A stretch of 64,000 bases of DNA from Cinnamomum chago (lineage: Eukaryota > Streptophyta > Magnoliopsida > Laurales > Lauraceae): positions 64,451,501 through 64,515,500 of the forward strand of contig CP142458.1 of assembly GCA_038049695.1 (NCBI GenBank), written 5' to 3'. A program made the position numbers and the translations under genes. The notes below the pieces were generated by a model. The model was not told where the DNA came from. It saw nothing but the letters and a program-made list of their open reading frames with translations, and made no database searches. Numbering within the stretch: position 1 is the first letter of the stretch; the number at the start of each line of letters is the position of its first letter. This document shows positions 2,826 through 61,877 of the stretch, piece by piece.

Positions 2826-2828
<3 letters not shown>

Positions 2829-2882: not shown

Positions 2883-2884
<2 letters not shown>

Positions 2885-3518
2885 TACACTCACTTATTAC
2901 CTGTTTGACATCATTTTGGAAATGTTTCATTTTGAGAATGAATGAAGAAAAGCTTATTTGACAGATATTTTGTGAGAGAAAATCTAGATGGATAGATTGG
3001 GAGAGATTTTATACATGTGTAGAATGGAAGTGAAAATGCTTGCCAAACAAGATTGTTTTCATTTATTCTCTTAATTTAACATTTCCGGAATGATGCCAAA
3101 TGGGCCCTTATCCTCTTGAATCGCCCTATCAAGTTTGACATTCATTGAACCTAGATGCATTGGTGGATTGAGCATTAAAGAGAAAAGATAAAATCTCAGC
3201 AAAAAAAAGAAAAGAAAAGAAGGAAAGATAAAAGATAAAATAATTTAATATATATTTTGACAGAAGAAAGAGATCACAAAGAGGAATCTGTTCGCCTAAT
3301 AAAAAAGATGGTCCCAAGAATGCCGGTGCCCACTGTGAAACAAGGATCGCAAGTGTGCCAATGATCCTGCTACATTTACTAGTCTAAATACAGATATGGA
3401 CCACATACAAGTGTATAAGAATCAAGTGGAGAATATTTGGTGCAATCCAAACCCAAAAGGCATAAATATCAGATGGCAAAGGCTGATACTAGATGATACA
3501 GACTATAACCATCTTCAT
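2883..3518. other. Intergenic stretch, nothing recognised
   Basis: AT-rich unique-looking sequence. The open frames here are short, low-complexity (Phe/Leu-rich) and without homology that I recognise. Confidence 0.4.
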
Positions 3519-4086
3519 GGGCGGTGCTACATGGATGTCAGTGGGGTCAAGATTTGAAGAATTATTAAAAAAAATATTTCTTCAATGAATTTAACTTATA
3601 TGAAGATTTTGACCCCACTCTATGCTTAAGTTAATGGGCCATTTGTCTATCAAAATAAAAAAATAATAATGGGCATAACTTTTGTTTTTTAAAGAAAATT
3701 TTATTTTTTTAGACATTTTGTCATTAACTCTTCATTTACCCTAACTTAACCTCTAAATACAGTATTCTCCCCATATTAGAAGGAGAAAACGCTAATATTT
3801 ATATTTAAGCATATAGACTCCCAATCCCAGCCGAGCAGCAGAGAAAGAAAAAACAAGAAGAAGAATTGTCGAGTTATTTGAGAATTTATATTTATTTATG
3901 TTTGAGAATTCAACATTATTTTTGTGGAATTGTTGGAAATAGATTATTTGAGAATTTTTTATTATGTTTGTCGAATTATCGAAAGTAGATGACAGATGTT
4001 GATAAAAGGGAAAAACAAATTGATTTGATTTATGAAAAATAAATCTTTTGTTGACTCCACTGACTCGAATTCTTGGAGCCGCCACT
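3519..4086. mobile_element. Decayed TIR element with GGCGG ends
   Basis: The left end GGGCGGTGCTACATGGAT is a diverged inverted match to the right end ATTCTTGGAGCCGCCACT. The ends resemble the AGTGGCGGA termini seen at 1557 and 7327. Non-coding AT-rich interior. No convincing target duplication, so the boundaries are approximate. Confidence 0.4.
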
Positions 4087-17022: not shown

Positions 17023-18139
17023 TCACTGCTTCAAATACTCCACATACCACTTGTAAGTGTCGGTGAGCCCCTCCCGGAGGGGGACTTTAGGCACCCAACC
17101 CAGCCCCGCCAGCTTCGAATTATCCATGAGCTTCCTCGGCGTCCCATCCGGCTTCGACGTGTCCCACACCAGATTCCCCTCAAATCCCACCACCTCCTTT
17201 ACCAGCTCCGCCAGCTCCTTGATGCTCACCTCACTCCCACTCCCCACATTCACATGCTCCAATCCACTATACTCCTCCATCAAGAACACCACTGCATCGG
17301 CCAGGTCGTCCACGTGCAAGAACTCCCGGAGAGGCGACCCGGTGCCCCAGACCACCACCTCCTTCGCCCCCGCCACCTTCGCCTGGTGGAACCGCCGCAT
17401 CAGCGCAGGCAACACGTGCGAATTCTCAGGGTGGAAGTTGTCATTGGGGCCGTATAAATTTGTGGGCATTAGCGATATCGCATCCCAATTGTACTGCAAT
17501 CGGTACGCCTGGCACATCTTGATCCCGGCGATCTTGGCGATGGCGTACCACTCATTGGTGGGCTCCAGCGGGCCGGTCAAGAGGGCGCTTTCCGGGATGG
17601 GCTGCGGGGCGAATTTCGGGTAAATGCAGGAGGATCCAAGGAAGACGAGCTTCCGGGTGCCGTGGCGGTGGGCGGCGTCGATCACATTGGTCTGGATCTG
17701 GAGGTTGATGGCGATGAACTCGGCGGGGTAGGTGTTGTTGGCGTGGATGCCACCAACCTTGGCTGCGGCGAGGATGACGTAAAGGGGGCGGTGGCGGGAG
17801 AAGAAGTCGTCGACGGCGGATTGGCGGGTGAGGTCGAGTTCGGCGTGGGAGCGAAGGAGGAGGTTGTGGAAGCCGAGGGAGCGGAGCTTGCGGACGACGG
17901 CGGAGCCGACAAGGCCGCGGTCGCCGGCGACGAAGATCGAGGCCGTCTTGTCGTTGAGGAAGGAGGTCGGAGATGGAGTTAGGGTTTCTGCAAATGTGGA
18001 GGTTTTAGCGTTAGGGTTAGGGTTAGGGTTTGGAGATTTGGTTTTCAATTGCAGTGAAGTGAAAAGAGATAAAAAGTGGAAAGAGTAGTAATTGAAATAC
18101 GTTGGGATTTGGAATCGTACCTTTTTCAGAGACTTGCAT
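17023..18139 (-). CDS. GER1: GDP-L-fucose synthase (GDP-4-keto-6-deoxymannose epimerase-reductase), two exons
   Basis: Cytosolic NADPH-dependent enzyme making GDP-L-fucose from GDP-4-keto-6-deoxymannose, for cell-wall and glycoprotein fucosylation. The long open frame (17023-18048) has no ATG at its 5' end. I therefore place exon 2 at 17023-17987 (acceptor TTTGCAG) and a 19-nt exon 1 at 18121-18139 (ATG to donor GTACGA; six codons plus one base), phases matching; an in-frame TGA at 18179-18181 precedes this ATG. The 327-aa product is the usual plant length. By residues of the long frame (subtract 14 for the spliced protein): GDRGLVG 42-48 NADP loop, GSSCIYP 138-144 with the Ser and Cys141, Tyr168-x3-Lys172, and His211 in NSHVLPAL matching the bacterial catalytic His. 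CpG-rich coding sequence against AT-rich flanks. GER1 versus GER2 cannot be decided. Confidence 0.92.
17988..18120 (-). other. GER intron 1 with telomere-like repeat
   Basis: 133-nt GT-AG intron. On the minus strand 18011-18031 reads AAACCCTAACCCTAACCCTA and on, that is 3.5 copies of the plant telomere unit and a perfect telobox (AAACCCTAA). If read through, it encodes a PNPNPNPN tract, which explains the misleading N-terminal extension of the long open frame. Confidence 0.75.
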
Positions 18140-22448: not shown

Positions 22449-24570
22449 ATGCCTCCAAAGACCAGACACGGTGGTGGAGGGCCTTCGAAGTCCCAAAAAG
22501 CATCGTCCTTCCCGCTACAGGAGCAACCTGCATTTCCACCATTTCCGGAACCACCCCCTGGCCTTCACTCTGCTCTGCCTCCCCCTCCGGGGCCGACCGG
22601 GCTGCTTCCCCCTCCGGGGCCGACCGGGATTCCCCCCGTCGGGCAGGAGCCATCGGGGACCTCGCGTCAGAGGAGGTCAGGGATAAAGTCGAGTGCCGCG
22701 CACATAGAGGGCCTCGTCCAGTCGGCTTCTTCGTCTCGGCCCATAACCACGCGCCTCCGCCAAGATAGCCATCGTGAGACTCCTCGCCACACTGGTGAGC
22801 GGCCACACGAGGGTCCTCAGCAAAACGCCTCCACGGCGGGTCTTCGACGACGAGGCAAAACCCCGTCGGGACGGGGTCCCGACAGTCCCACCAGCGCGTC
22901 CTCAACGACGGCCAGTCCTTCCATCAAACCCATGGAGCCAGGAGCGACAACCCCCTGCTCAAAGAGCTCAATGCCCAGCACCAGGCCCTCCAAGATAAAG
23001 ACGAGGTGATTCGTCGCCTCGAGGAACGACTCGAGATAAATGAGAGAAAGTCTCGTAGTCCACCTCCCCGGCGACAGCGGGCCCACCCGGACAACTGAAA
23101 CCTGAGGCAGGTCCTCGACAGCAGAAGAAGATACCACTGTGAGGAGGAGGGCTCCAGCAGCAGTCATCTGCCCAGTGGCCTCGGGGGATCGCGGCGCGAG
23201 CCAGAGCCACAGAGACCAGATGACCGGGCGGACTTCAAAGAGTTGCTGGATCATTACGTCAAACAGGAGGTCCAGGCCCGCTTGGCCGAGATCGGGTTCG
23301 CCCGAGACCTAGCTGATGAGCATGAAGAGGACAATCAGGGCATGTCCCCCTTTTCGCAGGAAATCAAAAAATTTTCTCAACCTAAGAGATTTAACGTCCC
23401 GAGGTTCGTCCTTTATGACGGAGCCTCGGACCCAGAGGCGCACCTACGGCATTTCACTCAGCGGATGTCGGTCTGGGGGGACGTCGGTCTTTTGAACTGC
23501 AGGGTTTTCTCATCCAGCCTGGGAGACCTCCCCCTCCGGTGGTTCTGCACGCTTCCCCCCGGGTCGGTCTCGAGCTGGCGGCAGCTCCGAAGTTCTTTCC
23601 TTGAAAAGTTTCAAGCACACCGCGTCATCCCGAAGACGGGTAGCAATCTCATGGTGATCTGAATGAAAGACGGTGAGAGCATCACTGCCTTCGCCAGAAG
23701 GTTCTGGACGATATACAGCCAGATTACCGACGCCAACGACGAAGTCGCCATCATGTGCTTTAGGGAAGGCTTACTCCCAGGAAACGAACTCCGTAGGGAC
23801 CTGGTCCGGAACCTCGTGGCTACGATGAAAGCATTGATGGCAAGGGTGAAACAATATGTCGAGCAAGAGGAGGACGAGGCCCACGGCACGGAGCGGTTTG
23901 GACTCCCAAAGAAGCACCAAGCCTCCACCAGGGAGGGGACGTCCTCCAGGCCGAGGTCGGATAAGAGAAAGCCTGCCCGCTCTTTCTCAATCTCCTCGGA
24001 CAACAGCAAGAGGCCGAGGTCTCAGCCAGCCAAGCCTGCCAGCGATCCTTACAGAGCCATCAGTGTTGCATTCAAGGAGCCCATTTACAGAATCCTGAGC
24101 AAAATCAAGACAGAACCATACTTCCAATGGCCGAGGCCGATGCCAGGCGACCCATCCACCCGAGACAGACAAAAACACTGCTCCTATCACAAGCAGCACG
24201 GGCACATGACTGAAGACTGCTTTGCACTAAAGTCCCATCTCGAAAAGCTCGTCAAGGATGGGCACCTCCAGGAGTACATCAGGGGGGAAGAAAGAGTCAA
24301 CCGAACTCAGCAGCGCAACCAACCCAGCGATGACCAGGACAGTGACGAACCGGCAGGTATCATCCACGTCATCCACCTGGCCCCCGCCCCGGGTAAGGAA
24401 AGTACCCGAGCTCGGTCAGAGGCCAGAAGGGCTGCCCATGGCAAGCAAGTGATGTCGGCAGAGCTACAAAGCGCCCCAAAGAGGGCTAAGAAGGAGAGGC
24501 CCAGGATTTGGTTCTCAGATGAAGACCTAAAGGGAGTCCAGCTCCCCCATAATGATGCCCTCATCCTCAC
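22449..24570 (+). pseudogene. Tat gag remnant (capsid-like core and zinc knuckle)
   Basis: A Pro/Ser/Arg-rich N-terminal part (22449-23009), then a gag core recognisable by KRFNVPRFVLYDGASDPEAH and MSVWGD (about 23380-23660) and the continuation to about 24560. A zinc-knuckle-like CSYHKQHGHMTEDC lies near 24181-24222. High GC compared with the flanks. Fossil reading frame; broken. Confidence 0.85.
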
Positions 24571-24589
24571 TCTGCGGCTCAACAATTAC

Positions 24590-24860
24590 ACCACCAAGCG
24601 CGTCCTCATAGATCCAGGGAGCTCCTCCGAAGTCATCTACTACAGCTGCTTCAAGCAGCTCGGCTTACCCGAGTCTGACCTACAGGAAGCCCACATCCCT
24701 TTGATAGGGTTCAGCGCTGAACCAGTGTACCCCAAGGGGAAGATCTCACTTGAAGTCCGGGTAGGAGGCGCGACAAAGATGGCAGACTTCATGGTAATAG
24801 ACGCGCCGTCCCCCTACAACGTGATATTGGGACGAAGTTGGCTGCATGCCATGGAGGCAG
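24590..24860 (+). pseudogene. Tat aspartic protease domain
   Basis: Retropepsin-type signature with VLIDPGSSSEV and, later, NVILGRSWLHAMEA. The usual active-site triplet reads DPG here, as often seen in Tat proteases (DTG/DSG/DPG variants). Part of the same frame as the end of gag. Confidence 0.85.
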
Positions 24861-25009
24861 TACCATCCACCCTTTCATCAAAAACTCAAGTTTCCATTAG
24901 AGAAGCCTGGTGGGGTGGTCGAGATTGTGACAGTGCGGAGAAACCAGCAGATGGCCAGAGAATGCCTCGTGGCCGTAACCCCCGGGGAGGTTGAGCCGCA
25001 GCAAGTGCA

Positions 25010-26520
25010 CATGGCCGAGCTCGAAGCCGAAATTGAGAATGTTGGGCGGACAGCCGGACAGAAAAGCATAGAGGACCTCACCGAGGTCAGGATTGATCCT
25101 GAAGATCCGGAGCGATACTTCCTGCTGGGTAGCCAGCTCCCCGACACTGAGAGGGCCGAATTGCTAGACTTCCTACTTCTGAATAAAGATGTCTTTGCAT
25201 GGACTCCATATAAGATGCCGGGGATTCACCCCGAGGTCATATGTCACAAGCTGAATGTGGACCCCGGACACAAGCCCATAGTGCAGAAGGCTCGCAGAAC
25301 GGGGATCCCACAGACAGAGGCGATTGTAGAGGAGGTGGATTAGCTCCTCGAAGCTGGGGCAATCCGCGAGGTGCACTATCCCCAGTGGCTAGCCAACACA
25401 GTGGTTGTAAAGAAGAAGAGCGGCAAGTGGAGGGTCTGTGTAGACTTCACCGACCTTAACAAAGCTTGCCCCAAGGATAGCTTCCCCCTCCCAAAGATCG
25501 ATCAGATGATCGACGCCACCTCGGAGCATGACAGGATGAGCTTCTTAGACGCCTACCGAGGTTACCATCAGATCCCTCTGCACAAATTTGATGAGGAAAA
25601 AACTGCGTTCATCACGCCTCAAGGCATCTACTGTTACAAGGTGATGCCCTTCGGGCTGAAGAACACCGGAGCAACATATTAGAGACTGGTCACGAGGATG
25701 TTTCGGGACCAACTCGGGAAGACGATGGAGGTCTATATTGACGACATGGTGGTCAAGTCCAAGGAGTCGCAGAGCCACCTGACAGACCTACGCCAAACAT
25801 TTGCAATCCTCCGAGAATTCCAGCTCAAACTCAATGCCTCGAAGTGTGCATTTGGTGTCGGCTCCGACAAATTTCTGGGAAGTCTGGTTACTCGGAGAGG
25901 GATCGAGGCCAATCCGGAGCAGATCGCAGCCATACAGGCTATCCAAAGCCCCACCTCGGCCAAGCAGGTCCAGAGACTGACAGGGATGGCTGCTGCACTC
26001 AATCGCTTCATCAGCCGCGCCTCGGACAAGTGCCGTCCATTCTTTCAGCTCCTGAAGAAGAGTTCCAAGTTCCATTGGACCCCAGAATGCGACTTGGCAC
26101 TGGAAACGCTCAAAAGGTACCTCTCCTCACCGCCCCTATTGTCCACTCCGTCGCGCAAGACGATTTTCTCTATCTTTACCTTGCAGTCTCGGACCATGCG
26201 GTGAGCTCGGTGCTGGTTCGAGAAAGCGACAAGCAACAGTTCCTCATCTTTACACCAGCAAAACCCTGCTCGATGCCGAGACCAGATATCTGCCTCTTGA
26301 AAAGCTAGCACTAGCACTGCTCAGCGCCTCTCGCAAGCTCTCCCATTACTTCTAGACTCACACGGTGGTGGTCATCACGGAATTCCCACTCAAATCCCTC
26401 TTCCGCAAGGCGGACTTTTCTGGCCGAATCTCCAAGTGGGCCGTGGAATTGGGCCAGTTCGACATCCAGTATCAGCCTAGAACAGCAATCAAGGCACAAG
26501 TCCTGGCAGACTTTGTCGTC
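25010..26520 (+). pseudogene. Tat reverse transcriptase and first RNase H
   Basis: RT blocks visible: KKKSGKWRVCVDFTDLNKAC, PKIDQMIDATSEH, FLDAYRGYHQIPL, MPFGLKNTGATY, the YIDDMVVKS catalytic motif, and the LGSLVTRRGIEANPEQ thumb, followed by the RNase H connection (about 26000-26520). Broken as part of the overall decay. Confidence 0.9.
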
Positions 26521-26629
26521 GAATTCACCTCTCCTAGTTCGGCACCGACCTCGCTCGATACCGAACTGGGGGAATCCAAGGGCAATGAAGAAGATAACAC
26601 TGAGACCGAGGAAGACCAGTCTTGGAAAA

Positions 26630-28368
26630 AATTCCTTGAATCAGCCTGGAAAGTTTTCGTTGACGGATCGTCGACATCTAAAAGAGCAGGCGCTGGGGTC
26701 GTCCTTCAATCCCCAGAAGGACTAGTCATAGAACAAGCACTGACCCTCGACTTCAAAGCATCAAACAATGAAGCAGAATATGAAGCATTGATCGCTGGTC
26801 TCGGCAGTGCAAAAGTACTAGGGGCACGGCGGGTGGCGGTCTTCAGTGACTCCCAGTTGGTAACAAGCCAGCTGAGTGGAGACTACCAAGCCAGAGACGA
26901 AAGAATGGTGGCCTATCTAGCCCACACCAGACAGCTCCTCTCCCAGTTTGAAAAAGGTGAAGTCAGGCAAGTCGGTAGGGAGTCCAATCGCCACGCAGAC
27001 GCCCTGGCAAGCCTGGCATCGGCCGTAGAAGCTGGGAAAAGAAGGACAGTTGATGTGAGGACGTTGGAGAAACCAAGCATAGAGCTCCTCCCAGTTCGGC
27101 GAGTTCTGTGCACTGACCTCGGTCCGAGCTGGATGGACCCGATCATGACATTCCTAAGGGAGGACAAGCTCCCCGAAGACAAGAACGGAGCCCACAAGGT
27201 CAGGATGAAGGCAGCTCACTTCTGGCTATCTCCAGATGAAAAACTCTACAGAAAATCCTACTCCGGGCCATATCTCCAATGCGTTCATCCGAGCAAGGTA
27301 GAAGATTTTCTATTTGAGATCCACGAAGGAATCTTCGGAATCCACATCGGAGGAAGGTCCCTGGCATACAGAGCTATTAGCCAGGGCTATTGGTGGCCCT
27401 ACATGCAGAAAGATGCACATATCTACGCAAGGAAATGCGAAAAATGCCAGAAGTTCTCCCATTCCCTTCACCAGCCAGCTCGGGACCTGAGCCCTCTCTC
27501 CAGTCCATGGCCCTTTGCTCAGTGGGGGCTGGACATCGTCGGACCTCTCCACCGAACTCCGGGAAACAAAAGATGGCTAATGGTGGGCACCGATTACTTC
27601 ACAAAGTGGATTGAGGCAGAGGCCTTATCCTCCATCACCGAGCTTGACACAAAGAATTTTGTGTGGAAAAACATCGTCACGCGGTTCGGGATCCCTAGAG
27701 CTCTGGTCTCGGACAACGGAACCCAATTCCATTCAAAATTCTTCAAAAGCTTCTGTCAGGAACTCGGCATCAGAAACCTCTATGCGACTCCGGCCTATCC
27801 GCAGAGCAATGGGCAAGCAGAGATCTCGAACAAAGTGGTTCTGGAGGGGCTGAAGAAAAGGCTTGATAAAGCTAAAGGCAGATGGACGGAAGAATTGCCA
27901 AGTGTCCTCTGGGCATACAGAACCACCCCGAGACGATCCACCTCGGCAACCCCTTTTTCATTGGCCTACGGGATGGAAGCTGTAATCCCTCTTGAGGTCG
28001 GCCTCCCGACCTTGAGGACAAATCTCTTCGATCAAGGGCAGAACGAAATGAACCTCGCCAGAGAGCTCGACCTGGCCGAGGAACAAAGGGAAGCAGCGTC
28101 CGTGCGTCTGGCCGCCTATCAGCGGCAATTATCCCGAGGATACAATCAGAGGGTAAAAGAAAGAAAGTTCTTGGTTGGAGAGCTGGTCTTGAAAAAAGCA
28201 CTCCCAGCAGATAAAGATCCTAATGAAGGCAAACTTGCGCCGAACTGGCTCGGCCCTTATAAGGTGGTCTCCGTCTCAGGAAGGTCGGCCTACAGACTTG
28301 AAGGGATGGATGGCAAGGAGTTGCCACGACCATGGAATGCTGCCCATCTAAAGAAATATTACTTCTAG
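26630..28368 (+). pseudogene. Tat archaeal-type RNase H and integrase
   Basis: The longest surviving open stretch (from 26365). The second RNase H runs from WKVFVDGSS (near residue 95 of the frame) through GVVLQSPEG, NNEAEYEALIAGL, VFSDSQLV and RESNRHADALASLA, retaining D-E-D-type residues. The integrase follows with an H-H-C-C finger (CEKCQKF), WGLDIVGPL, VSDNGTQFHS and PQSNGQAEISNK containing the D-D-E residues, and a C-terminal GPYKVVSV-type domain. This pair of domains fixes the Tat assignment. Confidence 0.93.
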
Positions 28369-28433
28369 TTGTATTCGAAATGATTGATCAATAAAGAAGA
28401 ACCTTTTGACAAAGAACTGCCTTACGTCTCTTC

Positions 28434-28817
28434 GGATCCGGCCCTCGCGCCATCCTCTTTGAGTTCGGTCGTAGGACCAACCCCGCACGGATCCGGCCCT
28501 CGCGCCATCCTCTTTGAGTTCGGTCGTAGGACCAACCCCGCACGGATCCGGCCTCGCGCCATCCTCTTTGAGTTCGGTCGTAGGACCAACTCCGCAAGGA
28601 TCCGGCCCTCGTGCCATCCTCTTTGAGTTCGGTCGTAGGACTAACTCCGCAAGGATCCGGCCCTCGGGCCATCCTCTTTGAGTTCGGTCGTAGGACCAAC
28701 TCCGCAAGGATCCGGCCCTCGCGCCATCCTCTTTGAGTTCGGTCGTAGGACCAACTCCGCAAAGATCCGGCCCTCGCGCCATCCTCTTTGAGCCCGGTCG
28801 CAGGACCAGCTCCGCAA
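28434..28817 (+). repeat. Seven tandem copies of a 55-bp unit in the Tat 3' region
   Basis: Starts GGATCCGGCCCTCGCGCCAT in most copies; one copy is 54 bp and the last is more diverged. Located just after the integrase stop, where Tat/Ogre elements are known to carry fast-changing tandem repeats that can seed satellites. Open across all frames on the minus strand, which makes a repetitive artefactual ORF. Confidence 0.93.
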
Positions 28818-29253
28818 GGCACGGAGTTCGACCTACACCCCAGCTTGGCCCATACCTCTCGAGTCACCAAAGAATGCTCGCCAAAAATAAAGATACAGCC
28901 CCAGCCCTTCAGCAAGAAGACCACATCTCGGGGTATGAACCCAAGCTAATCACAAAATCCTTCCTAAAAGGCATTCCTCCCGAGAAGAACATCTTTAAGA
29001 CCTAGCCATTGGTCTGGGGGCAGCCTAATGATAGGATAAGAATTCGGACGCTTTACCAACCTCCAGGACTTGTGAATTTTCGCATCGAAGCATCCACATA
29101 CCATTGCCAAGAAAGAGCAAAGAAGGAAGACAACAAGGTGGAAAAAGATCTTCTCATTGATCAAAAAGTATGATTACAAGGTTCCTATGCACTTGAAAAA
29201 AGAAAGAAAAATTACATTGAAAAAGAAAAAAGAAGAGAAAATTCCTAAAGAGT

Positions 29254-31973
29254 CTACTCCTTGGGCGCCGCCTTATTAGTCTCCGGCTCTGGAAGTGCAG
29301 AAGAAATGGGGGCATCACGAGCAGATGGAGGAGCTCCAGGAGGAGCCTGGGCCGCCTCGACTTCGGCAGGGGTCGAAGGAGGAGGAGGAGCGCCTTGGAC
29401 TTCGACAGGGGTCGGAGAAGGAGGAGGAGCGCCTTGGACTTCGACAGGGGTCGGAGGCGGAGGAGGGGCGGCAGAGACATCGGCCGGAGCCCCAGAAGGG
29501 TTGGAGCCAGGCTCTGGCTCTGAGCCCACTGCTGCAGGTCGGAACTGAGGAAAATTCGAGAAGATGGGATGGTCCTCAGAGACCCCATACTTAAGAAGGG
29601 CCGCCTTGCACCTCATCTCAAACAGCAATCAGATCTGAGCCACGTACTCCTCCGACGCCCAATCCACCCCGTCCTGGTAAGCCTTTGCAGCCTGATCTCG
29701 CAGGATGGATTCGGCATCGGCCCTCTCTTTCCTAGAGGCCTCGAGCTCAGCCTCTTTCTTAACCAGTTCGCCTTGCTTCTCGGCGACCTCGGCCTCTTTC
29801 TTGACGAGCTCGGCCTCCATCTCGGCGAGCTCAACCTCCAGTCGGGACGCCTTCCTCGCCTTGTCATCTGCGGCGCCCCTCAGATTCTTATTTTCGCCCC
29901 GCAACTTGATGATTTCAGCCTTCGCCGCTTGCTGATCCGTTGCGTGTTGGGCGATTTTCTCCTCCGCCTTCTTGAGTTCGGCCGCGCTGGCCTCCAGCGC
30001 ACTCCCTAGCTTCTTCTTCTCCTTCTCTAGCCCGGCGATGTGGGCAGCCCTTTCTGCATGCCTCTCCATCAGTACTTGGAGCCTCTGCGCGTTTTGCTAA
30101 AAGGATAGAAACGGTGAGAAGGTCGGATCGGATAACCAAGAAGCGAGAATTTTAGAAATAGGGAAGAAAAGCTACCTCGAGCGACGCCCTCAACGTCTGA
30201 TGAATTAAAGCCGGAGTCCCGGTTTTCCTGTGCCTTTCCATGTCCTGGGGGAGGGCGCATCCCCGGGCGAGGGCCACGACCGACTCCCAACTGCTCCCCA
30301 GTTGCTCCCCCACTGTCATAGGCTCGTTGGGGTTGAGGTCGAAGTTGGGCCTCCAAGGAACCGGCGTGGAGCGCTGGGGCTGCGGTTCCGATGACTGGGG
30401 CCTCCCCTCCGCGCCCGCCAGGCGCGGCCTCTTCTCGGGAGGGGGCCTCTCGCCCTCCTTTCCGGCCGCCGCGGACCGAGGCCGGGCTTCCTTCTGCGGC
30501 GGGGGAGGCGGAGTCTCCTTCCCGGGTTCCACCACCCGCGGCCTGCTGTCCCGGAGCGGGCGAGGCTCCTTCGGCAGCCGAATGACCCCGGAGGGCTCCC
30601 CCGACTTCCCCTTCGAAGACTTGGCCGAGGGAGCGCCCGCTGCTCCCGACGAACTGAAAGAGGCGGCGGGGGCGGACCCCTGAGCGGCACCCGACCCACT
30701 GGGGGCGTGCTTGAAGGATGCCGGGGCTTGGCCGGCAAAAATCAGGGCCCCCAGGTCCTTCAAAGCGGGGCGCGGCCTGTCCATTTCTTCTCCTTCTGCT
30801 TCTCCCTGGTCTCGGGGAGGACTGTCGCCGATGACTATCGGGTCCTGAGGATCCGTGGCTCGACTGTCGGTCTCGGCGGACTCAGGCCCGACTTCCCCTG
30901 TTGGCGCGATGGGGATCTCTGCAGTCTTCCTGGTGTAAGACTGGTACCGAGGCTTGTACCCTAGCAAGGAGAAGGCAGCTCGGTCGTGGTGGCCGTGGTA
31001 GCGATCGATCCTCTCTAACCACGCGTCGTTTCGTTTCCACTTATCAAAACTGGCCTCTTTCCTTCTCTTTTGAATACCTGCGCAGAAAACAATGATGGGC
31101 GTTAGCTCGGTACAACAACAAGCATAGGCGACGCAGTCGAAACCCAAAGGGGCAGGCATTTACTAGCTGGGGTCCCGGGTCTCCGTGGGACCTGGATCCT
31201 CCGGTCCTCTTCGGTCTCGGTCCCCCTGAACTCCCAGTTCCCTGAGACCACTATTCGGTCGTCTCCGGCGTATTTGTTGGAGTCTTCCAGGGCATTCACT
31301 AAGGGCCGACACCTGGCTTTCACCCGGAGATAGTAGGCGTCCTCGGTCCCCGCAGCCTTGTAGATGTCATAAACATCCTCTATGTCATGTACGCCGAGGC
31401 CGATGTCCAGGATCCAGTTCAGCTCGGCCACGCCCATTATTATTTTGAAGCCATTCGGCATTAATTGGAAAGGGCAGAGGTTCCACGCGCTGAGGCAGGA
31501 CCGGAGGAGCGGATGGATAGGGAACCTAACGCCCCCTTCGCATACAGACAACAGCGGGAAGGGCATCCAATTTTTGTACATAGTAAGACCGTCAGGAAGC
31601 CCCTTAAGGTCATCGGGCTTCACCACGACATCAGCCGAAATCTTAAAAAATGACCTAAAAGCCTCTAGGGCTGCCAGGCTTTCCAGCCAGTGACTATAGA
31701 TTCCCATTTTCCCCAAATGCGAAAGGAACAAGGAGGGGTCGAAAATGAATGAAAAACGGAAAAAAACCCTAAGGGGCTGGTAACCTCTGACACGGCAAGA
31801 ACAGGGAACGCAAAGAAGCGGAAAGGAAAAGAAGTAAAACTCACAGAAAGGGTGCTGAGGGCGAAAAGGCTGAAAATCAGGGAGAAAAGAGTTCTCGAGA
31901 TCAGTTGGTTCGTTCTCCAGCAGAACAGTAGCAGGACTTCGTCTCCTTCAGCGGCGCTCTTCTTCTCAGACAA
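29254..31973 (-). pseudogene. Antisense ORF block of the Tat element
   Basis: Several open frames read opposite to gag-pol. In antisense order: an N-terminal start region (to 31973), a globular part with WLESLAALEAFRSFFKISAD and CPFQLMPNGFKIIMGVAELN (31731-31102), a Pro/Ser/Glu-rich low-complexity part (31159-30152), a long Glu/Lys/Ala coiled coil (30069-29629) and a Pro-rich tail with a repeated PTPVEVQGAPPP unit (29628-29254). The frames suggest introns, as reported for antisense ORFs in this lineage. Function unknown; the globular part resembles the plant-mobile-domain/transposon-like proteins commonly seen here. Integrity cannot be judged without transcripts. Confidence 0.75.
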
Positions 31974-38200: not shown

Positions 38201-41200
38201 ATATTGAAAATTTTATCAACATTAAAAAAAATCAAATAGGTAAAATATCTGACAGGTATTGTTTCCAAGACCTTGCCCATCCAAGGCAAGCCCTTGGGGA
38301 TAATTGGTTTAGATATTACGCGTATGTAGTGCATGTATGATGCAGCAACACCAATATGTTGTTGGAGAGAGACTTGGGGGCCACATGTGGGACCCAAGGG
38401 AGCCTAGAGATTTTCTTATTTTATTAATTGTTAATAGTTTCTAATTTTAATGGAAGAGTTGTAATTAAGAATAGCTTTCTAATTTCTGTAGGATTCTTAT
38501 CTAGTTTTCTAGTTTGATTAGGAGAAAGAGTCTTAGTCCCTAAGTCTCTTTTACTATTTATATGACATTGTAGAGATCATAATCTCAGAGTTGAGTTAAT
38601 AGAGTTTTTCCCTTGTGGGATTTTATCATTGGAGAGTTTCTTCATCGTGAAATTGTTTATGCGGAAACCCACCATTGTGCTGTGGCACCTACGATCAAAA
38701 TCCTAACCCTAGAATTTACAACAATTGGTAGCAAAGTAGATCAACAGAGGAGAGCAGATTTCCAGTCCTTTGCGCCCAGTCAGTCTAGTCCATAGGTCCA
38801 TTAATTTAATTTGCTTTAGTTAATTATTTGGAGTTTGTTGAGTTATGCAAGTGGGGTCCATAGGTTTTTTTATTTTTGAAAAGATGACTGAATTCCTTTC
38901 ACCAGGGAACTTTATAGTATAAGAGGACCATACTGAAAACAAAAATGCCCAAAAAAATAATAAAAAAGAAAGGGTTGACCACCCCCAAAAATTCAAGCAT
39001 CAACCAAAAGCCAAAAAACATATTAACAATAAGATACTCCCTCTTTGGCTAGGCGATCTGCTTCCGAATTTGCACAGCGCTTAATAAGGTGATATGAAAT
39101 GTTCATATTCTTAGCAATGTCTGCCACCTCTTCTATTACAACTGCAAAGTACCAAGGAGCCGTAGATACTTGAGACGCCCACTTTATCGTACATAAGGAA
39201 TCCCATTCAATAATCAGCAGCTAAGGATTGAATCATAAAGCTTCTTGTAGCCCGATTTTTAGAGATAATACCTCAGCTATGTTACTTGAGCATAGACCAG
39301 CTGGACCTGAGTATGACAGCAGGGTGATACCTTGATCGTAACACCATAAAGCTTCTTGTAGCCCGATTTTTAGAGATAATACCTCAGCTATGTTACTTGA
39401 GCATAGACCAGCTGGACCTGAGTATGACAGCAGGGTGATACCTTGATCGTAACCACCACCACCCCCCCCCCCCCCCCCCACATCAAAATTCAAAGCAATA
39501 TATCTATAAACCATGCAGGGTTTCTGTAGATGTGGGAATGCTACTTCCATCCCATTTTCCCATCAAAATTCAAAGCAATATATCTATAAACCATGCAGGG
39601 TTTCTGTAGATGTGGGAATGCTACTTCCATCCCATTTTGAATGATGGAATTTGCTGAAATGCCCCCGAAGAGTGTTGATGAAGAAGCCCAAATAGTGATC
39701 ATGTTGGATGGGTGTGACACCATTGCCTCGCTAGTCATGGATAAGAAGAGAGATGCAACTGAAAACATGCCATTGGTAGAGGTTGTCCAAATCCTTTTGT
39801 TGTTCCCATTTTTCGGAATGAAAACGTTGCCAATAAGCAACATCATAGATTGAAATTGAGCAGCCTCATCATTCAGATTTCTTCTAAAAGTGGGCCCCAC
39901 AAACTACCCAATCATCGATCCATTCCAAGTAATCAATAACTATGGCACTTTGATTAGTAGCACAATTGAATAGAATTGAAAAGGAAGTCGCTAATAGAAT
40001 TGATCAGTCCAAAAGAAGACTTCGTATCCCTTGCCAATGCAATATCTGATATTCTTAAAGAAGATCTCCTTTGAAGCAAGACTACGCTTCCATATGCTTG
40101 AGTATCGCGGCATAGAATCTCGGACTTCCCACCCATCCCTGGAAAATTCCATATTTTGAGAATATTACCTAATTCCATAGGGTTTCAGATCCATCCCCAA
40201 TCTCCATAACCATTTTCCAAGGAGTGCTAGATTAGTCTCTTTCATGGCTCTAATTCCCAAAACCCCATCTTCTTAAGACTTGCAAACTTGGACCATTTTA
40301 TAAAATGGAATTTCTTTTTCTTCTCATTACCGTGACATAAGAAATCCCTCTGCAATTTCTCAATGCGTTTGATTATCTCCACCGGACATTTAAAAAGGGA
40401 CATGAAGTAGATTGGAAGGTTTGCTAAGGCTACTTTAATTAAAGTAATACTGCCACCAAAAGACAAATATTTAGTTTTCCACAAAGAAAGTTTTTTTCTA
40501 ACCTTTCAAGCATTGGGGCCCATAGAGATTTGGACACCACTCCATAACAAAGTGGCAGTCCCAGATATGTTGAGTGAAGCACTCCACCTTTGCACCCAAT
40601 AAGGTCTGCCAGTCTTTGTAAATGATTTTCATTCACCTTTATTCCTATGACTATGAGCTCACTTTTAAATAAATTCACTCTAAGGCCCAATACCACTTCA
40701 AAGCATAAGAGGATCACTTTAATGTTGCGAAGTTGATCTTCTTCCGCATAGCTGGAAAATTATGGTGTTGTCTGCACATTGCAAGTGTGTTATTTCCTGC
40801 GCCTCACTTTAAGGACAAAAACCTTTTATCAACTTGGCATTTGCTGCTACGTACATCATCTTACTAAGGGCTTCTACAATGACGAATAAGAAGGGTAACA
40901 ACAGATCCCCTTGATGCAACTCTCTAGTATCTGAAAAGAAAACTTCCAGGGATCCGTTAGCTAGGATAGAGAATGAAGATGATTTTAGAAATTCGAACAT
41001 TTTATACCAACGCCCATTCTCCTTATCTACATAAAGAAGTCCCAATCAACTCTGTCATATGCATTCTCCAAGTCTAATTTGCAAATGAGACCCGGTTTTC
41101 TTGCCATTTACCCGGAGTGGATACATTCATTTGCGATTAAAACACCATCTAGGATTTGACGTCTGTGCACAAATGCTCCTTGTGCAAGGGAAGGGATATC

Positions 41201-55131: not shown

Positions 55132-55791
55132 TTCATCCCTGAAAGTCCGGGATCCTAACCCTAGAGGGGGGGTGAATAGGGTGAGCTACAATATGTGACC
55201 AATTAAAACAAATTTTAACTTCTTTAAAATAACCTAGTCACAAGTGAGGATTATCAAACAAAATGCGAAAGCTTAATAAAAACAATCACCACAAAGCATT
55301 TACCATCACACAAAGATTTATAGTGATTCGGCCTCAATGCCTACATCCACTACCGGCTTGTAATTCAACACCCCACCAGATTTCCACTATCTATGCTTTT
55401 CAATAAGCTAAACAATAACCTTTACAATGTTATTTTTCTAGGCTAAACAACAACCTCTCAATGTGTTTTTCTAGGCTAAACAATAACCTTTACATAATGC
55501 TTTTCTTAGGCTAAGCAATAACCTTTACAAGAAAAAATTTTCTCTTAAAGAAGTGTCTACACAAACACTCAAAGAGATACAATTTAAGCTCAATATATTT
55601 GCTTCTAAAATAGGCGGATATGAAAATGAAAAACTAACTCACACAAACACTAAATGAATGCAAAGATGTATGCTCATGATGTGTGTGTGATAACTTCAAT
55701 CAAGTTAAAAACAAAGCTCAATTAATATATGCTTCAAGCATTTAAAAGATTAAGGCACATAAAATATTTTTTATTGAAGTGAAATGCAAAT
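55132..55791. mobile_element. LTR-like sequence, left half, split by the CACTA element
   Basis: A polypurine-like AGAGGGGGGGTGAATAG occurs at 55161-55177, an arrangement common at LTR borders of large plant LTR elements. Just before it (54993-55110) are three GGTCTCAATCGACC-type words in both orientations. The sequence resumes after the CACTA insertion at 61878. Family and outer limits unknown; fossil. Confidence 0.4.
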
Positions 55792-56329
55792 CACTACATC
55801 AAAACAGCAAAAAAACCACAGTAATAGACTGTCGTTTTTTGTGTCTCGATTTGGAGTGTAGCTTTTGGAAAACAACAGTCCTCATATGTGGTTTTTATTT
55901 TGAAAAAACCACAGCCCAGTACTGTGGAAAATTTAGTTTCTAATACGACATTCATAGTCTGTCGGTTTTTTATAAAATGAAGTTGTGTTTGTTTGAGATA
56001 AAAAACGACAGTCAACGACTGTGGTTTTTTATATTTTTCTTGAAAAAAATAAAATATTTCAAATATTAAACCTATTTAGTATCAATAACAATCCATTTAA
56101 GCAATTCAAACAACCATATCCATCAACCATCTAAATCTCAAACATCCACATATTAGCCATCCAAACAATACCTAAATAACAATATAATTTCATTCATCAA
56201 AAGCACATGCAGCCATATCATATCCAAGTATCAACCAAAAAAATAGGCCAACAAAATCCATCATCCAACATTTACTCAAACTTATACCCTCAAAACATTT
56301 ACCTAAAAGTAAGAATAGAAAACTAATAA

Positions 56330-57278
56330 AGTATGGTCCTAATTATAGGCCAATCAAGCACATCTCCTAGTATGACATCTCCTAACTTCCGTTCCCCGTC
56401 GAACAAGTCAACATTCTTATCAACAATCTCATCTAACACAATCCTATAGAAACCTGCCTCCGGTAACTCCGTACCTTGTAGTCTTCCATAAGCAATTATG
56501 TTTTTCATCTCCTAACTTCCGTTCCCCGTCGAACAAGTCAACATTCCTATCAACAATCTCATCTAACACAATCCTATAGAAACCTGCCTCCGGTAACTCC
56601 GTACCTTGTAGTCTTCCATAAGCAATTATGTTTTTCTTTGTCATGTGCTGCAACTTACACAAAGATGGGCCTCTTGTGTGTGTGATTGTTTGGTCCAAGT
56701 GTGCAGCTAGACTCTGAGAACTTTGGCTCCCCTACATACATCATTAGGAACACATTAATTTTTATTATATCAATGTAGACATTTCATTACATTTAAGAAG
56801 GAATCTATTATATATTAATACCTCAGAGGAGCTTCCACGTTCGGTAGAAGGCCGTATTTGTGTATTTGCTTGAGATAGGGACGTAAACATCCCCTCCATT
56901 TCACGCCTTAGATCCCTAGACTTCACTTCCAGTAGTCATCTTTCCAAATTATCCGCTTGAGCTTATAGGATAACTTGTGATTCATGTTCCTTTTGTAATG
57001 CTTTCTTGTAAGGATCTGAATACTTGATGGAGGTCTTTGAAACTCCGTCGCCTATGCCTTTTACACGTCCACGATTATCACGACCAAAAATCTGTGTAAA
57101 AAAAAAAAAATCAATGTCAATCCATGTTCGTGATAGTATGTTTTCGTCACTATATTTGATGGTTAATAAAATCATGTATGAGAAATATAATTACACCACA
57201 TACCAAGGCTACCGCGTCATGATCTAAATCTTTCTTTGCAATTGAAGGGTTATCCTCATACAAGCTAGCAACTCTTTC
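56330..57278 (-). pseudogene. En/Spm-family transposase-associated gene remnant
   Basis: Exon-like pieces on the minus strand: 57204-57278 (ERVASLYEDNPSIAKKDLDH, acceptor TTTTGCAG, donor GTATGTGG), then a piece with IFGRDNRGRVKGIGDGVSKT near 57095-56963, and a C-terminal piece with NIIAYGRLQGTELPEAGFYR and IVLDEIVDRNVDLFDGERKL. These match the conserved FGKDRPGRVRGxGxGVTPT and YRVSVDxVxD-type blocks of plant Ptta/En/Spm proteins. The C-terminal piece is duplicated in tandem, so the gene is disrupted. Confidence 0.7.
56376..56635 (-). repeat. Tandem duplication of 130 bp in the CACTA gene remnant
   Basis: Copies 56376-56505 and 56506-56635, each beginning CATCTCCTAACTTCCGTTCC, differing by about one base. 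130 is not a multiple of three, so the duplication shifts the frame. Confidence 0.95.
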
Positions 57279-57717
57279 CTGCAAAAATAATTTTTTTTTT
57301 AGAAAAGAAGAGATTAATAAAAAAGAATAAGGAAGAAAAAGAAGAAGAGAACTTCAAGCATAGTAGTTCATGTTTATTCAAGGTTTTGACTGCATACTCA
57401 ATTCATTTTACCCCAGATGTTCAAAATAAAATGCAGATTGCAGATGTTCTCTTTTGATTCTAGGCAGTGTAGAATACTATATATTTATGAACTTTTCTAA
57501 CACAAATGGTTTAGATCATAAAAACCTATTCTTTGTGGGTTATTTTAAGCAGTAGTCCAGTGCATTGATGTTCTCTGTGTGTGCCTGTGAGATGAATGCA
57601 TTTTACACTTCAAAATGCGCTGCAATTGCTTTTGGATACTTAAACAAAGCAACATTTACATATTTTCAAGCAAAACAATCTGTACAATCTCTTACTTAAA
57701 CGATCTCAAATAACAAC

Positions 57718-58295
57718 CTGGATTCCAGCATGACTGCAGAGGAAGAAATCAAATTCAGTAGGATGGCATACCACAACAGTGCCTGTAAATTCAAACTTAT
57801 GAAAATGATGAATGAAAGTTTAAACTTCAACTCAAGATAGGATAGGACCTTAGAGTATCAGAGATACGGGCTATTAATTACCAGGTAGAATATTTCCACT
57901 CTTGTCAGTGCTACTTCTGTTCTTATGGTTGTTCGCGAACAATCTTGTGTGGTGACGCTTTTGGACAACCACAAAGGTTACTGGGGGCTGGTAATTAGGC
58001 TCTAAGGATGCGCAAGCCTAAAGAAATCAGATAATAAGCACCCAAGAGTAAATAGATATGAATTTTGTCTATGAGAATGGACGTTAACTAACCTTACGAA
58101 TTGCATCTAATTCATAAAGCAAGACTTGATAGAACCGCCCTTCACTGACACCATCCCTATGCACACAACCAAAGACATGTAAAATAAAGATACACCATTT
58201 AATAGGCATAATGAATGATAACATCAAACTACCTATAAAAGATAATTCTCAATGGCTTATGCCCAGTTGCCTTCCTGAAGGAAATTAAAAGTTTC
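57718..58295 (-). pseudogene. Captured Argonaute PIWI-domain fragment (AGO10/AGO1 clade), four exons
   Basis: Four consecutive exons with intact GT-AG introns of 76, 75 and 99 nt: 58233-58295 ([20 protein letters not shown]), 58093-58156 ([20 protein letters not shown]), 57882-58017 ([20 protein letters not shown], then [20 protein letters not shown]), 57718-57782 ([20 protein letters not shown]). Phases match and about 109 codons stay open. This is the middle of the PIWI domain, including the Asp of the RDGVSEG motif (second catalytic residue in plant AGO1). The wording [12 protein letters not shown] and ANNH favours the AGO10 (ZWILLE/PINHEAD) side. Compared with the family, three codons are missing between TVV and CHP, and Gln in EGQF is Arg. 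The rest of AGO is absent, so it cannot act as an Argonaute. It lies inside the CACTA element, in the same orientation as its transposase-related exons. Confidence 0.9.
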
Positions 58296-58875
58296 CTATA
58301 GTAGAAGAGTATTTAGTACCTCCAAATCATGAATATATAAAGAAACTACTAAATTGAAAAAAATAAAGGTGTGATTCAATAAGAGAACTTTCTCCAAGGA
58401 AAACACAAAATGCAACAGCTAGAATCATCTTCTAACTATTGTTAGGTTGAAACAACTTAACATTTGAATTTAAGGTATATTCAAGTCATGTCCATTTGTT
58501 GATCAATTACAACATTGGCATCTGAACCACCAATTATGTCTTCCTCACCTTAGGTGAGACATACCTCTTAAGAACTACTTTTATTGATTCTAACCAATTA
58601 ATCAACCTAAGTAGAATGGATGATCTAAGTAACTATCTGATCAATTTTATCATAATGGATCACTAGAAACAATTAAAGCTTAAATAGTCCACTCCTAAAT
58701 CTTTGTCACTTATCTAGTGGCCCTAATTTTGGATGTTGATATCATTCAAGAATCACCGTAATTAGATTATAACAATTTGAGTTTTGGTGAGAAATGAATT
58801 GTCACATCAATTACGATGAAATAATTTTGCAATAAATAATTTTTAATCATGCCCAAATCACGTCAATGGATTACA

Positions 58876-59110
58876 ACTCTATGATTCGCGAAATAGAGGC
58901 AGCTTCTGGCCTTCTAAGAACGTGCCCAAACCATCTCAAATGATATTCTTTTATTTTTTTTCTCACTTGAAGTTATTCAAAAATTACTTCTAATGTTCTT
59001 GTTTCTAATCCTTACTTGTCTAGCAACGCCGCATTCCTTCTTAGTGTGCTCATCTCAACTGCATGAACTTTAGCTTATTAATGTTTCCTTGTTGACCAAC
59101 ATCCTTCCCC
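58876..59110 (-). mobile_element. RTE-clade LINE remnant inside the CACTA element
   Basis: Minus-strand translation gives EYHLRWFGHVLRRPEAAS, the conserved RTE C-terminal signature (LRWFGHVxRRP), preceded by a degraded YGEGCWSTRKHINKL block (family: YGxECWxxKKxxxxKM). Short, dead fragment without defined ends. Confidence 0.75.
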
Positions 59111-61440
59111 ATACAACATCCAACTTTCGTGGCACCAAAAAGTAGTGGGCAGCATACATTATTCAAAGGAGTATGAACTAGAAACGGATATAGATGGCAT
59201 CTAGGAAATTGTGGTCATTTGCTACTAGTTAAGAGTATCTGTTGAGGAAGATGTAGCTAACCTTTTGTTTTCTTGTAGCTAGTAGTAAAAATCTTCTCTT
59301 CTGCCAAAAAAAAAAAAAAAGCAACCAAACCAATCAAATAATCACAACCCTTCAAATAGACAATAGAGTTCCCATAACTAAGATGTCAAATTCAAATAAA
59401 CATCAGGAGGGGATTGAAGGCAGGTGATAAAATTGGATTATCTTGGAATTCAGAGGAATCCTACTTCTTGTTTTTAGTTTTAAGGCGCGCTTAACAATTA
59501 GCACACTTCTGTCCATATGAAATTTTGCTTGTTTCTTTTGTTCTTACATTGTCTAGTTTTTAGTCCAAGAGTCTTGGTTGTAGTTTTGATTACTTGGGGT
59601 TGTGAGCAAATTTATGTCAAACTGTAAAAAGGTTCATTGGTGTCTTCATTCATGTTAAGTCTTGAAGTTATGCAACCATTGGTGTCAATTAATTTGTGTC
59701 CTGCTGTCAATCAGTCACTCCACTCTTTTGTAGTTCTTTGGGTTTTTTGTAATGAAGAGAAATACATGTTACCGAGAATGCATTTTCTATTTCTTTTGCA
59801 CGAACAATATTTACAACATTTTAAACCTTTTTGTGCCATGCTTGTATACTTGAACTGGGTTCCCTTGAAATCAGGTTGCCTGCAACTCTTGGTCATGGCA
59901 AAGAATAAAACAACCATGACTAATAATGGGGAACTCAAGTTTTAGCCAGGAAAATACATCAACTGTCCATTTACCCATAAACCAAATTACCTGCATTGGG
60001 TTTCCAAGAAAACCCAAATGGGCCCTTGGATTTAACATGTGGGACTTATTGACTAGTGTGATACAGACAGTCTGATATGATCAAGTTTTTCTCATAGCTT
60101 ATGCAGATCATGTCTGAAAGGGATCTAGATTAGGAGTCTAGTCTATTAAATATTTTCATCTTCTAGGTTGGATGCAGGTTGTTGCATTGTTATTTTCTTT
60201 TAACTACTCCTTTGGATCGCCCTGATTTCAGTGCAGGCAACTTGGTAATACTTGAAAGAATTCAGTAGGAACTACTTAGTTACAGCCCCAGCTTTTGGTT
60301 CATATCCAATCATTCTTTTGCTTGTTGTTACATTATTTTCTTTTGATGGCCATTAATAATCATAAAAGTTCATTCTAGAGAATTAACATCTTTACCTTTA
60401 ATCAAAATAAATTATTAAAAGAGAGGAAAGAAAAATATAGATCTCATCGTCTTGAATTGGCTTGCTGAACATCAAGAGAAAATAGAGAATCCCATCATGT
60501 AGTTTCATCTCTGAAACCGCTTCAAGTATATAAAGAAGAACCAAGAACACCAGTGAAATTGGCTGCAGCTTCTACTTAAGTTAATTCTTTTAGCACCCAG
60601 GATATCGTATTTATCTACTTTCATCCTTTTAATCTTCTGCTATCATTCATTTTTATATACTATGATCTTCCTCTGTTCTTTTATTTTAGATGTAATACAT
60701 TGCCTCAGTCTGGTTAGGCATCAGAGTGCAATAAAAGTCAAGAACTAACATCAAGCAAAAGAAGAAAAAAAAGGTCAAGAATAAAAAGTACCCTTGACCC
60801 ATTTTCAGAAACCAAATATTTTCCACCACAAAGACAGAGTTCAACTACAACCTTCAGAAATCTAAACATCAATCTAATGTAACCAATAAAATCCTCGGAA
60901 CCCATCACAGAAAGTATACATAGGAAAATAGCAAAGACCCAAAAATGATTCCGAACTTCCCCAAAATGATGACAGAAATCTTCTGTGAAGCCAATAAAAA
61001 AATCATGGTCCTTTCAAAGAGAAAACACATGCCTTCTTCATGTCCTTTTTATATAATGGGAGCCAGATCATAGGTCAAAAGCAAGATAAAGAAGGCCAAG
61101 AGCCCAAGAGAAACCCTTGGAGTTTAGGGTGAATCTTGGTGTGAATTAGTGAAGAGGATGATTCATAGTAGAAGAAATGACATGCATCAACAATAGTATA
61201 AAGAGAAAGTCGACAGAGGAAAAATACCACCTTCATGCACAGAAGCTCATAACTGAGAGAAACCCTTAAACATATTTTGGCAAGATTTGGCACTAATTGA
61301 CGAAGAAGAAGAAGATTTTGATGATAAGATGGGTTTATGAAAAACCGATTAAGAAAAAAGGAAATGAGAGATGGGGTCACTGATGGAGAGATGGGGCTTG
61401 GGGAAAATGAAGAAGAAAGAAAAAAAAAAAAAAACAGAGA
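59111..61440. other. CACTA interior, unassigned
   Basis: No recognisable domain. The open frame at 61075-61380 (minus) and that at 59637-59945 have no family I know. It could be further captured non-coding or intron sequence. Confidence 0.4.
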
Positions 61441-61545
61441 TGGGGTTCGGTGATGGATAGATGTCCTTTAGGGGATGGGATTCGGTGATTGATGGATTGA
61501 TGGCATTTAGGGGTGGGGTTCAGTGATGGATAGATGGCCTTTAGG
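61441..61545. repeat. Three-copy degenerate minisatellite, 33-39 bp
   Basis: Units start TGGGGTTCGGTGATGGATAG, TGGGATTCGGTGATTGATGG and TGGGGTTCAGTGATGGATAG and end CCTTTAGGG-like. Located in the right subterminal part of the CACTA element. Confidence 0.75.
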
Positions 61546-61877
61546 AATTTGGTGCTCGATTACCCGACGGTGTTTACAGCTTGCAGTGGAGATGGATGGC
61601 CGGAGCGCAATGGGTGAGTCGAGAGATGAATACTGATGGTGCTTACAGCCTGTAGAGTCATGCTTGAGAAAAGGAGAGCAGATGGAGGGAGGGAAAGAGG
61701 GGAGACGGCGGGAGATGAAAAGGGGGCGGGTTTATTTTAAGTCCTTTTTTCAGATGAAACAGCCACAAAGAGGAGTTGTCGTTTATAAAATTGCTTGCGT
61801 CTCAAAATACTACAGCCCAAACGATTGGTTTTCCTACCCTGTTTGTGTCGTTATTAATCAATATTGACGTAGTAAAT

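Follow-up and report, generated by a model that had tools for sequence, protein, structure and literature searches.

A Pack-CACTA-type element of Cinnamomum chago carrying an AGO10-clade gene fragment

Introduction

The window analysed here, a stretch of 64,000 nucleotides of Cinnamomum chago DNA, contains exons of an Argonaute (AGO) gene lying between sequences that resemble the ends of a CACTA transposon. This locus raises the question whether a transposon has captured part of a gene for a silencing effector, from which gene the part was taken, and whether it serves any function at its new location. As the genome for comparison we used the window's own assembly of 1.06 Gb.

Results

Identification of the element

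The region 55792-61874 is a CACTA element with AGO10-clade cargo, of the Pack-CACTA type. It begins with CACTACATCAAAAC at 55792 and ends with GACGTAGTA at 61874, with AAT on either side. Inverted repeats starting with CACTA, a hallmark of the superfamily, were found at its ends, the left end being CACTAC and the right end TACTAC, one change away from the CACTAC that stands at the right end of C9a, C3a, C3b (other copies, see below) and L061 (a relative). The 3-bp target-site duplication, also a hallmark, is AAT in the window, GCT in C9a and GGA in L061, and short subterminal repeats in both orientations, a further hallmark, are located within 55810-56030. The features of the element are as follows.

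55792..61874, no strand: Pack-CACTA-type element, 6083 bp (ends common to other copies)
55789..55791, plus strand: left target-site duplication AAT (flank comparison)
61875..61877, plus strand: right target-site duplication AAT (flank comparison)
55792..55805, plus strand: left terminal inverted repeat CACTACATCAAAAC (sequence of element end)
61861..61874, minus strand: right terminal inverted repeat, degenerate, reading TACTACGTCAATAT (sequence of element end)
55810..56030, no strand: subterminal repeats in both orientations, of the ACCACAGT...ACTGTCGTTTTTT type (repeat analysis)
56376..56636, no strand: tandem duplication of about 130 bp, where the match breaks in the 38 other loci whose match begins there
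59405..60758, no strand: second foreign block, absent in L052; the relatives L053 and L054 sit just inside what we read from the sequence as an LTR-like end

The AGO cargo was detected at five loci on several chromosomes of the host genome (the window, C9a, C9b, C3a and C3b), so that the search for further copies with the same cargo, proposed in the initial annotation, yielded four besides the window. One of these, C9a, is complete at both ends, with CACTACGTCAAAAC ends and its own GCT/GCT duplication; in C3a and C3b the right terminus is identical in position to that of the window, and C9b has the same left end. Because the same end points recur in these four copies, the CACTA ends and the AAT duplication assigned by the initial annotation to 55792..61874 are not a product of chance.

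Structure of the captured AGO fragment

The initial annotation had described the cargo as a spliced fragment of an AGO10-clade PIWI domain, made of four exons with their introns, and this description holds: the four joined exons of the window copy encode 110 residues with no stop and match Pfam Piwi at 8.5e-39; among solved structures their best match is Arabidopsis AGO10 (7sva, 1.1e-62). The GT-AG sites of the three introns between these exons are intact. The count of four is correct for the window copy and not for the captured block, which has five exons; the fifth (e5) is lost from the window copy only, together with the left capture junction, since about 375 bp are deleted there at 57366/57367. 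Compared with the donor and the other copies, e4 of the window copy has in addition lost 9 nt in frame. The extent of 57718-58295 first given to the AGO sequence proved too small, since empty sites and the donor alignment place the AGO-derived block at about 57367-59116. The features of the cargo are as follows.

58233..58295, minus strand: AGO exon e1, 20 residues (AG/GT flanks, copy alignment)
58093..58156, minus strand: AGO exon e2, 21 residues (AG/GT flanks, copy alignment)
57882..58017, minus strand: AGO exon e3, ending ...SGNILPG (AG/GT flanks, copy alignment)
57718..57782, minus strand: AGO exon e4 with the 9-nt deletion, 21 residues (AG/GT flanks, copy alignment)
57367..59116, minus strand: block captured from the C2 AGO10-like donor, without its 3' edge and e5 (empty sites of L050, L051 and L052, donor alignment)
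57360..57370, no strand: scar of the deletion of about 375 bp, present in the window copy only
58860..59116, no strand: diverged interspersed repeat in a captured intron, which we take to be LINE-like; it occurs at 35 other places at 67-90%, and the donor has the same repeat

Donor gene and capture junctions

The cargo derives from an AGO10-like gene of the host itself, located on contig C2 at about C2:91537622-91545366 on the minus strand, so that the parent AGO that the initial annotation had recommended searching for was found. The evidence for this gene spans PAZ (C2:91545211) onward, with exons recognisable to the C-terminal VMFYC. When the C9a element was compared with 20 kb around the donor, a single matching block was detected, at 1642-3681 of the element, in near-perfect agreement with the limits of 1652-3678 drawn from the empty sites. 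The window block is 95.4-96.0% identical to the donor in two aligned pieces. Cargo and donor belong to the AGO10 clade, with 7sva ranking first and a donor dN of 0.040-0.041 to AGO10a and AGO10b, against 0.075-0.091 to four genes labelled AGO1-like, a placement that short nucleotide trees leave unresolved.

Two other interpretations of the donor were dropped. The C2 locus (about C2:91538.7-91540.7 kb) had been taken as a sixth copy of the cargo, until the PAZ search identified it as an AGO gene itself. A donor lost from the genome, or a foreign one (horizontal transfer), had been considered in view of the near saturation of silent sites between the cargo and AGO10a and AGO10b, and was withdrawn once the C2 locus proved to be an AGO gene.

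Six family members without AGO were compared (L050, L051, L052, L061, L062 and L063). In three of them, L050, L051 and L052, the alignment spans the capture point and is contiguous there save for 1 base, while L061-L063 diverge from the shared sequence ahead of this point. The empty site seen in these three AGO-less members sets the captured block at 2027 bp. It comprises five PIWI exons and four introns, flanked by a portion of one intron and by about 19 nt of the next. At the join there is no target duplication; the site has lost 1 base, and one edge shows a 3-nt microhomology. The alternative that a resident AGO gene was hit or adjoined by a transposon, the exons being its degenerate remains, can claim the preserved introns and splice sites and yet deserves practically no credence, as the block is also present in four other CACTA copies, a fuller gene stands on C2, and the empty sites and donor weigh against it; nor does an AGO gene continue in place.

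Family members and mobility

The family comprises at least 40 loci, the cargo being found in five, and siblings have common ends and unlike interiors. The sibling L061, with ends and a GGA duplication of its own, carries a fragment of the unrelated gene SBP56, and for this reason AGO may be a chance cargo.

Pfam searches of window 56200-57400 (minus strand), L012 301-3949 (both strands) and L013 7405-9600 (minus strand) recognised no transposase, in line with the non-autonomy of Pack-CACTA elements, and these stretches gave no gene beyond an AGO exon. The minus strand of window 56640-57290 has what we take to be a transposase-like look, and Pfam gave no confirmation. L062 has a match to DUF4216, a domain linked to CACTA transposases, which may lie outside the element because the right end of L062 was not found. 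Transposase_21 is abundant in the genome, since all 150 scored candidates (from 1658 in all) matched, many in frames longer than 700 aa; these loci were not linked to the ends described here, and an autonomous partner sharing those ends was not found.

Sequence decay and possible functions of the cargo

The initial annotation suggested small RNAs from the cargo acting on the host AGO. In such a role, read-through or antisense transcripts of the copies would give rise to siRNAs that lower the mRNA of the AGO10-like donor, a counter-defence of the miR820-DRM2 kind, which we judge very unlikely. An siRNA effect on the donor is possible because 21-mers of the cargo exons match it exactly (146/236 in the window, 227/332 in C9a, 238/332 in C3b, 201/332 in C3a and 116/289 in C9b); when up to one mismatch is allowed, AGO10a is matched by 14 and AGO10b by 9 of the 232 window 21-mers. 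Rice offers a precedent for counter-defence by CACTA elements, as far as the accessible part of the report goes (PMC3459959). The captured intron forms modest stems (z about -2.2 to -3.5), the recurrent one being present in the donor too, and among folds of 150-nt windows from the five copies the lowest z was -3.8, calculated for just the three to six windows of lowest energy in each copy, with a longest unbroken helix of 15 bp. Rfam gave no match at the gathering threshold. None of the listed inverted pairs of at least 18 nt has both arms in the window cargo; the closest such pair (22 nt, 77%) spans the right edge of the cargo. The window contains no miR168-type site at up to 3 mismatches. 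With no convincing hairpin, no such site, and a sibling carrying SBP56, the regulatory proposal found no support; the AGO cargo, moreover, was found in just five copies of the family. That the five copies together form a dispersed siRNA source lowering the host AGO10-like gene in trans would be slightly less likely still.

Selection might instead maintain the capture as an exon donor for chimeric proteins or as a dominant-negative PIWI fragment, which we consider very improbable. In soybean, the exons that Tgm-Express1 has captured undergo splicing into transcripts (PMC1947982), and GT-AG is kept at the three introns of the window copy. Copy-specific exon changes number 20 replacement to 13 silent (donor row included), a mild silent excess, since 2.6 to 3.8 would be expected in the absence of selection. 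In the 10 pairwise comparisons between copies, however, exons change no slower than the remainder, differing by 1.6-5.2% against 0.6-3.6% for non-exon sequence, with the exon difference equal or higher. Relative to the donor, divergence is lower in exons than in non-exon sequence for four of the five copies (1.6% versus 3.0% in C9a; reversed in C9b), as is to be expected given the constraint on the exons of the donor itself; this pattern leaves room for weak selection on the cargo. A frameshift in e2 common to C3b and C9a, a stop in e5 of C3a, and, in the window copy, the deletion in e4 and the absence of e5 also oppose this alternative, and point to pseudogene decay of the cargo.

The suggestion that the capture may be recent is roughly right, the non-exon sequence of the copies differing from the donor by 3.0-4.0%. 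The open frame of about 109 codons, on which it was based, is no evidence of recency because sibling copies of the fragment bear the frameshift and the stop.

Discussion

We consider it very probable that the window contains a non-autonomous Pack-CACTA-type transposon with an AGO10-like fragment copied from the C2 gene, the copies of which then decayed. Under this scheme, 2027 bp of the C2 gene were copied, probably by DNA repair, into a pre-existing member of the family, the donor gene remaining in place. The element presumably reached at least five places through transposase supplied in trans by autonomous relatives, as the copies suggest; these copies have since decayed roughly neutrally, with loss of e5 from the window copy. 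We infer that the cargo is without function.

Donor, filled copies and empty-site relatives in one genome make up an unusually complete natural record of CACTA capture, in which the junctions can be read at single-base resolution. Since the cargo derives from a silencing effector, one can readily ask with it whether captured fragments give small RNAs that feed back on silencing; should there be no such feedback, it would support capture that is indifferent to gene function. None of the open-access matches listed reports a plant transposon with a captured AGO fragment.

TART-A of Drosophila, which is said to be a retrotransposon, differs from this CACTA element in belonging to an animal and its piRNA pathway. 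It is nevertheless similar in being a transposable element with sequence in common with nxf2, a silencing-pathway gene of its host (PMC7785250, in part). Rice has CACTA elements that hold miR820, a miRNA similar to part of DRM2 and targeting it, as stated in the portion of PMC3459959 available. Unlike miR820, the AGO cargo has no convincing precursor hairpin and its targeting is hypothetical; if true, it would be the second case, after miR820/DRM2, in which a CACTA element uses a part of the silencing machinery that it has captured against its host.

Capture of gene fragments by CACTA elements is an event of known kind, of which the window element is a further case. In the accessible part of a 2026 review of plant gene capture, the word argonaute occurs 0 times (PMC13317346). 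As described in the available text of PMC8903248, Pack-CACTA elements of Arabidopsis, rice and maize resemble this element in CACTA ends, target duplication, non-autonomy and a captured gene fragment; a host gene fragment with an identifiable donor (the C2 gene) and several copies (five with cargo) were likewise found here. It differs from them in its AGO10-clade cargo and in the internal insertion at a clean empty site, in contrast to the fusion of two neighbouring elements given there as the route. Soybean Tgm-Express1 is likewise a CACTA element with captured fragments that retain exons and introns, but it holds five gene fragments and sits in a gene intron (PMC1947982), whereas a single gene fragment was recognised in the element of C. 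chago.

Identification of the donor gene and of the CACTA copies carrying its fragment

The genome consists of 14 contigs (1.061 Gb in total), and the window occupies C8:64451501-64515500. The initial annotation placed in it a CACTA transposon with spliced Argonaute exons inside; its coordinates proved exact, and we identified this element as a Pack-CACTA-type transposon with a captured fragment of a host AGO10 gene, for which the donor, the filled copies and the empty sites are all in hand.

Features of the element, a filled copy, the donor and a second insert
Window 55792-61874: CACTA-type element of 6083 bp, with CACTA-type ends and AAT on either side
C9, about 44.295-44.301 Mb: copy C9a, 6432 bp, CACTACGTCAAAAC to GTTTTGACGTAGTG, flanked GCT/GCT
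C2, about 91537622-91545366 (L015+L016), minus strand: donor AGO10-like gene, with PAZ and exons to VMFYC
Window 59405-60758: second foreign block, missing from L052, an AGO-less family member

After BLAST of the element against the fetched loci, homology was found to end at identical termini elsewhere, the right end being common to the element and the cargo-carrying copies C3a and C3b, and the left end to the element and a further copy, C9b. The inner part of the left 1.57 kb matched 38 other loci, C9a included, at 94-97%, while one locus, among the 40 of 171 candidates scored, matched the outer part only; counting this locus and the window itself, the family comprises at least 40 loci. A search for the same cargo in other copies was rewarded, the AGO block being found in five loci. 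A tandem duplication of about 130 bp (window 56376-56636, 99% matches) is probably private to the window copy, because the matches of other family loci are interrupted there.

The PIWI fragment was confirmed: the minus strand holds four exons bordered by AG and GT, which when joined encode 110 residues without a stop (Piwi, 134 bits; Arabidopsis AGO10, 212.6 bits). The Argonautes identified are plant-type proteins. The AGO block of the other copies has five exons (e1-e5). Exon e5 is kept in four of the five copies, and was removed by a deletion of about 375 bp from the window copy, which also has smaller deletions of about 70 bp in intron 1 and 9 nt in e4; e1 is likewise kept in four, the aligned block of C9b beginning past it.

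That the genome holds no donor was considered and overturned by a PAZ search, in which one of 15 matches (C2:91545211, minus strand) fell upstream of a locus earlier labelled as copy C2a, with more exons recognisable from PAZ onward as far as the C-terminal VMFYC. The parent gene sought is thus on C2: the 20 kb around it shares with the C9a element a single matching block (96.7% over 2051 columns), corresponding to element 1642-3681 and agreeing within 10 nt with the limits that the empty sites set for the block. Capture began within a 2.4-kb intron of the donor; the piece spans e1-e5, which are without stop in the donor, and ends about 19 nt into the next intron.

Six AGO-less family members were fetched for the empty-site comparison. 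In L050 (C4), L051 (C9) and L052 (C1) both flanks of the AGO block align with one extra base between them, the empty site reading AAGAC-C-CATCCAAC against the filled AAGAC-(2027 bp)-CATCCAAC; L061-L063 are uninformative since the shared sequence ends at about element 1400-1421, short of the capture site. Comparison of filled and empty sites gave no target duplication at the block junctions, and CAT at the right edge is common to donor and empty site. This clean junction and the shared CAT point to copying by a repair process, by which the block would have entered, rather than to insertion by transposase.

Relationship of the donor and decay of the captured exons

The host has two other AGO10-like genes, at C3:123.29 Mb and C6:22.4 Mb, which we label AGO10a and AGO10b. 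Fourfold-site differences were 26/48 for the donor against 15/55 for the AGO10a/AGO10b pair, and 99.85% of 2000 codon bootstraps put donor and AGO10a farther apart than the pair; the donor-AGO10a distance was indistinguishable by this test from the AGO10a-AGO1 distance (47%), indicating that fourfold sites are near saturation. Judged from these sites, the donor is an old paralog of the AGO10 clade that predates the pair and is close to saturation at silent sites against both of its genes; its dN is 0.04 to each of the two, and short nucleotide trees left its placement unsettled.

Non-exon divergence from the donor was 3.0% for C9a, 3.2% for C3b, 3.3% for C3a, 3.7% for the window copy and 4.0% for C9b, with exon divergence below these values in four of the five copies. 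Among the copies themselves the exons evolve no slower, since they differ by 1.6-5.2% against 0.6-3.6% outside exons. With the donor row counted in, copy-specific exon changes comprise 20 replacement and 13 silent ones; as the expected ratio is 2.6-3.8, this is a mild silent excess. Decay is visible in several copies: C3b and C9a have an e2 frameshift in common, exon e5 of C3a contains a stop, and the window copy has its deletions. The open frame over four short exons, earlier read as hinting at recent capture, therefore shows neither recency nor function.

Other cargo in the family and other features of the window

A host gene fragment was found in one of three sampled siblings (L061-L063), a sample too small for a rate: L061, a complete CACTA element with a GGA duplication, carries at about 5149-5364 a selenium-binding-protein (SBP56) fragment (1.6e-27). 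The L062 and L063 stretches were fetched without the right end; the former gave a DUF4216 match that may fall outside the element, and the latter no recognisable cargo. The second foreign block has relatives elsewhere in the genome at 71-96%, and in two of them (L053, L054) its sequence sits immediately interior to an LTR-like end, GGGGTGTAACA, so that a retrotransposon leader is one possible reading; L053 1000-1401 gave no Pfam match.

Elsewhere in the window, an LTR-retrotransposon-like region (22449-31731, GC about 52-58%) has protease, RNase H and integrase domains and, at 28434-28819, seven copies of a 55-bp unit. A minus-strand ORF at 17023-18048 (341 aa from TTG; Pfam Epimerase, 1.7e-66), presumably GDP-fucose-synthase-like, is probably an ordinary host gene. 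Two near-perfect tandem duplications at 39234-39638 (111 bp x2, 99%; 80 bp x2, 100%) are apparently recent.

Possible regulation of AGO by the cargo

The initial annotation proposed that the cargo could give small RNAs against the host AGO gene. As far as sequence identity goes, such regulation could occur: the window copy has 236 exon 21-mers, of which 146 are identical to the donor, and each of the other copies has 289-332, of which 116-238 are; a few match AGO10a or AGO10b at one mismatch or less. Anatomical sign of it is little. None of the inverted pairs listed has both arms inside the window cargo, Rfam gave no family at its threshold, and folding gave only modest stems: in the lowest-energy windows for which it was computed, z reached -3.8 at most, and no unbroken helix exceeded 15 bp. 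The stem that recurs sits in a captured intron and is present also in the donor. A modestly stem-forming stretch of the captured intron, at about 58407-58616 of the window cargo, sense strand (z about -2.2 to -3.3), is shared by the donor and C3a.

The element offers a good textbook case of gene-fragment capture, of a kind already known. For the regulatory idea, rice miR820 (PMC3459959) provides a precedent, by analogy with which regulation of AGO by captured cargo would not be absurd.
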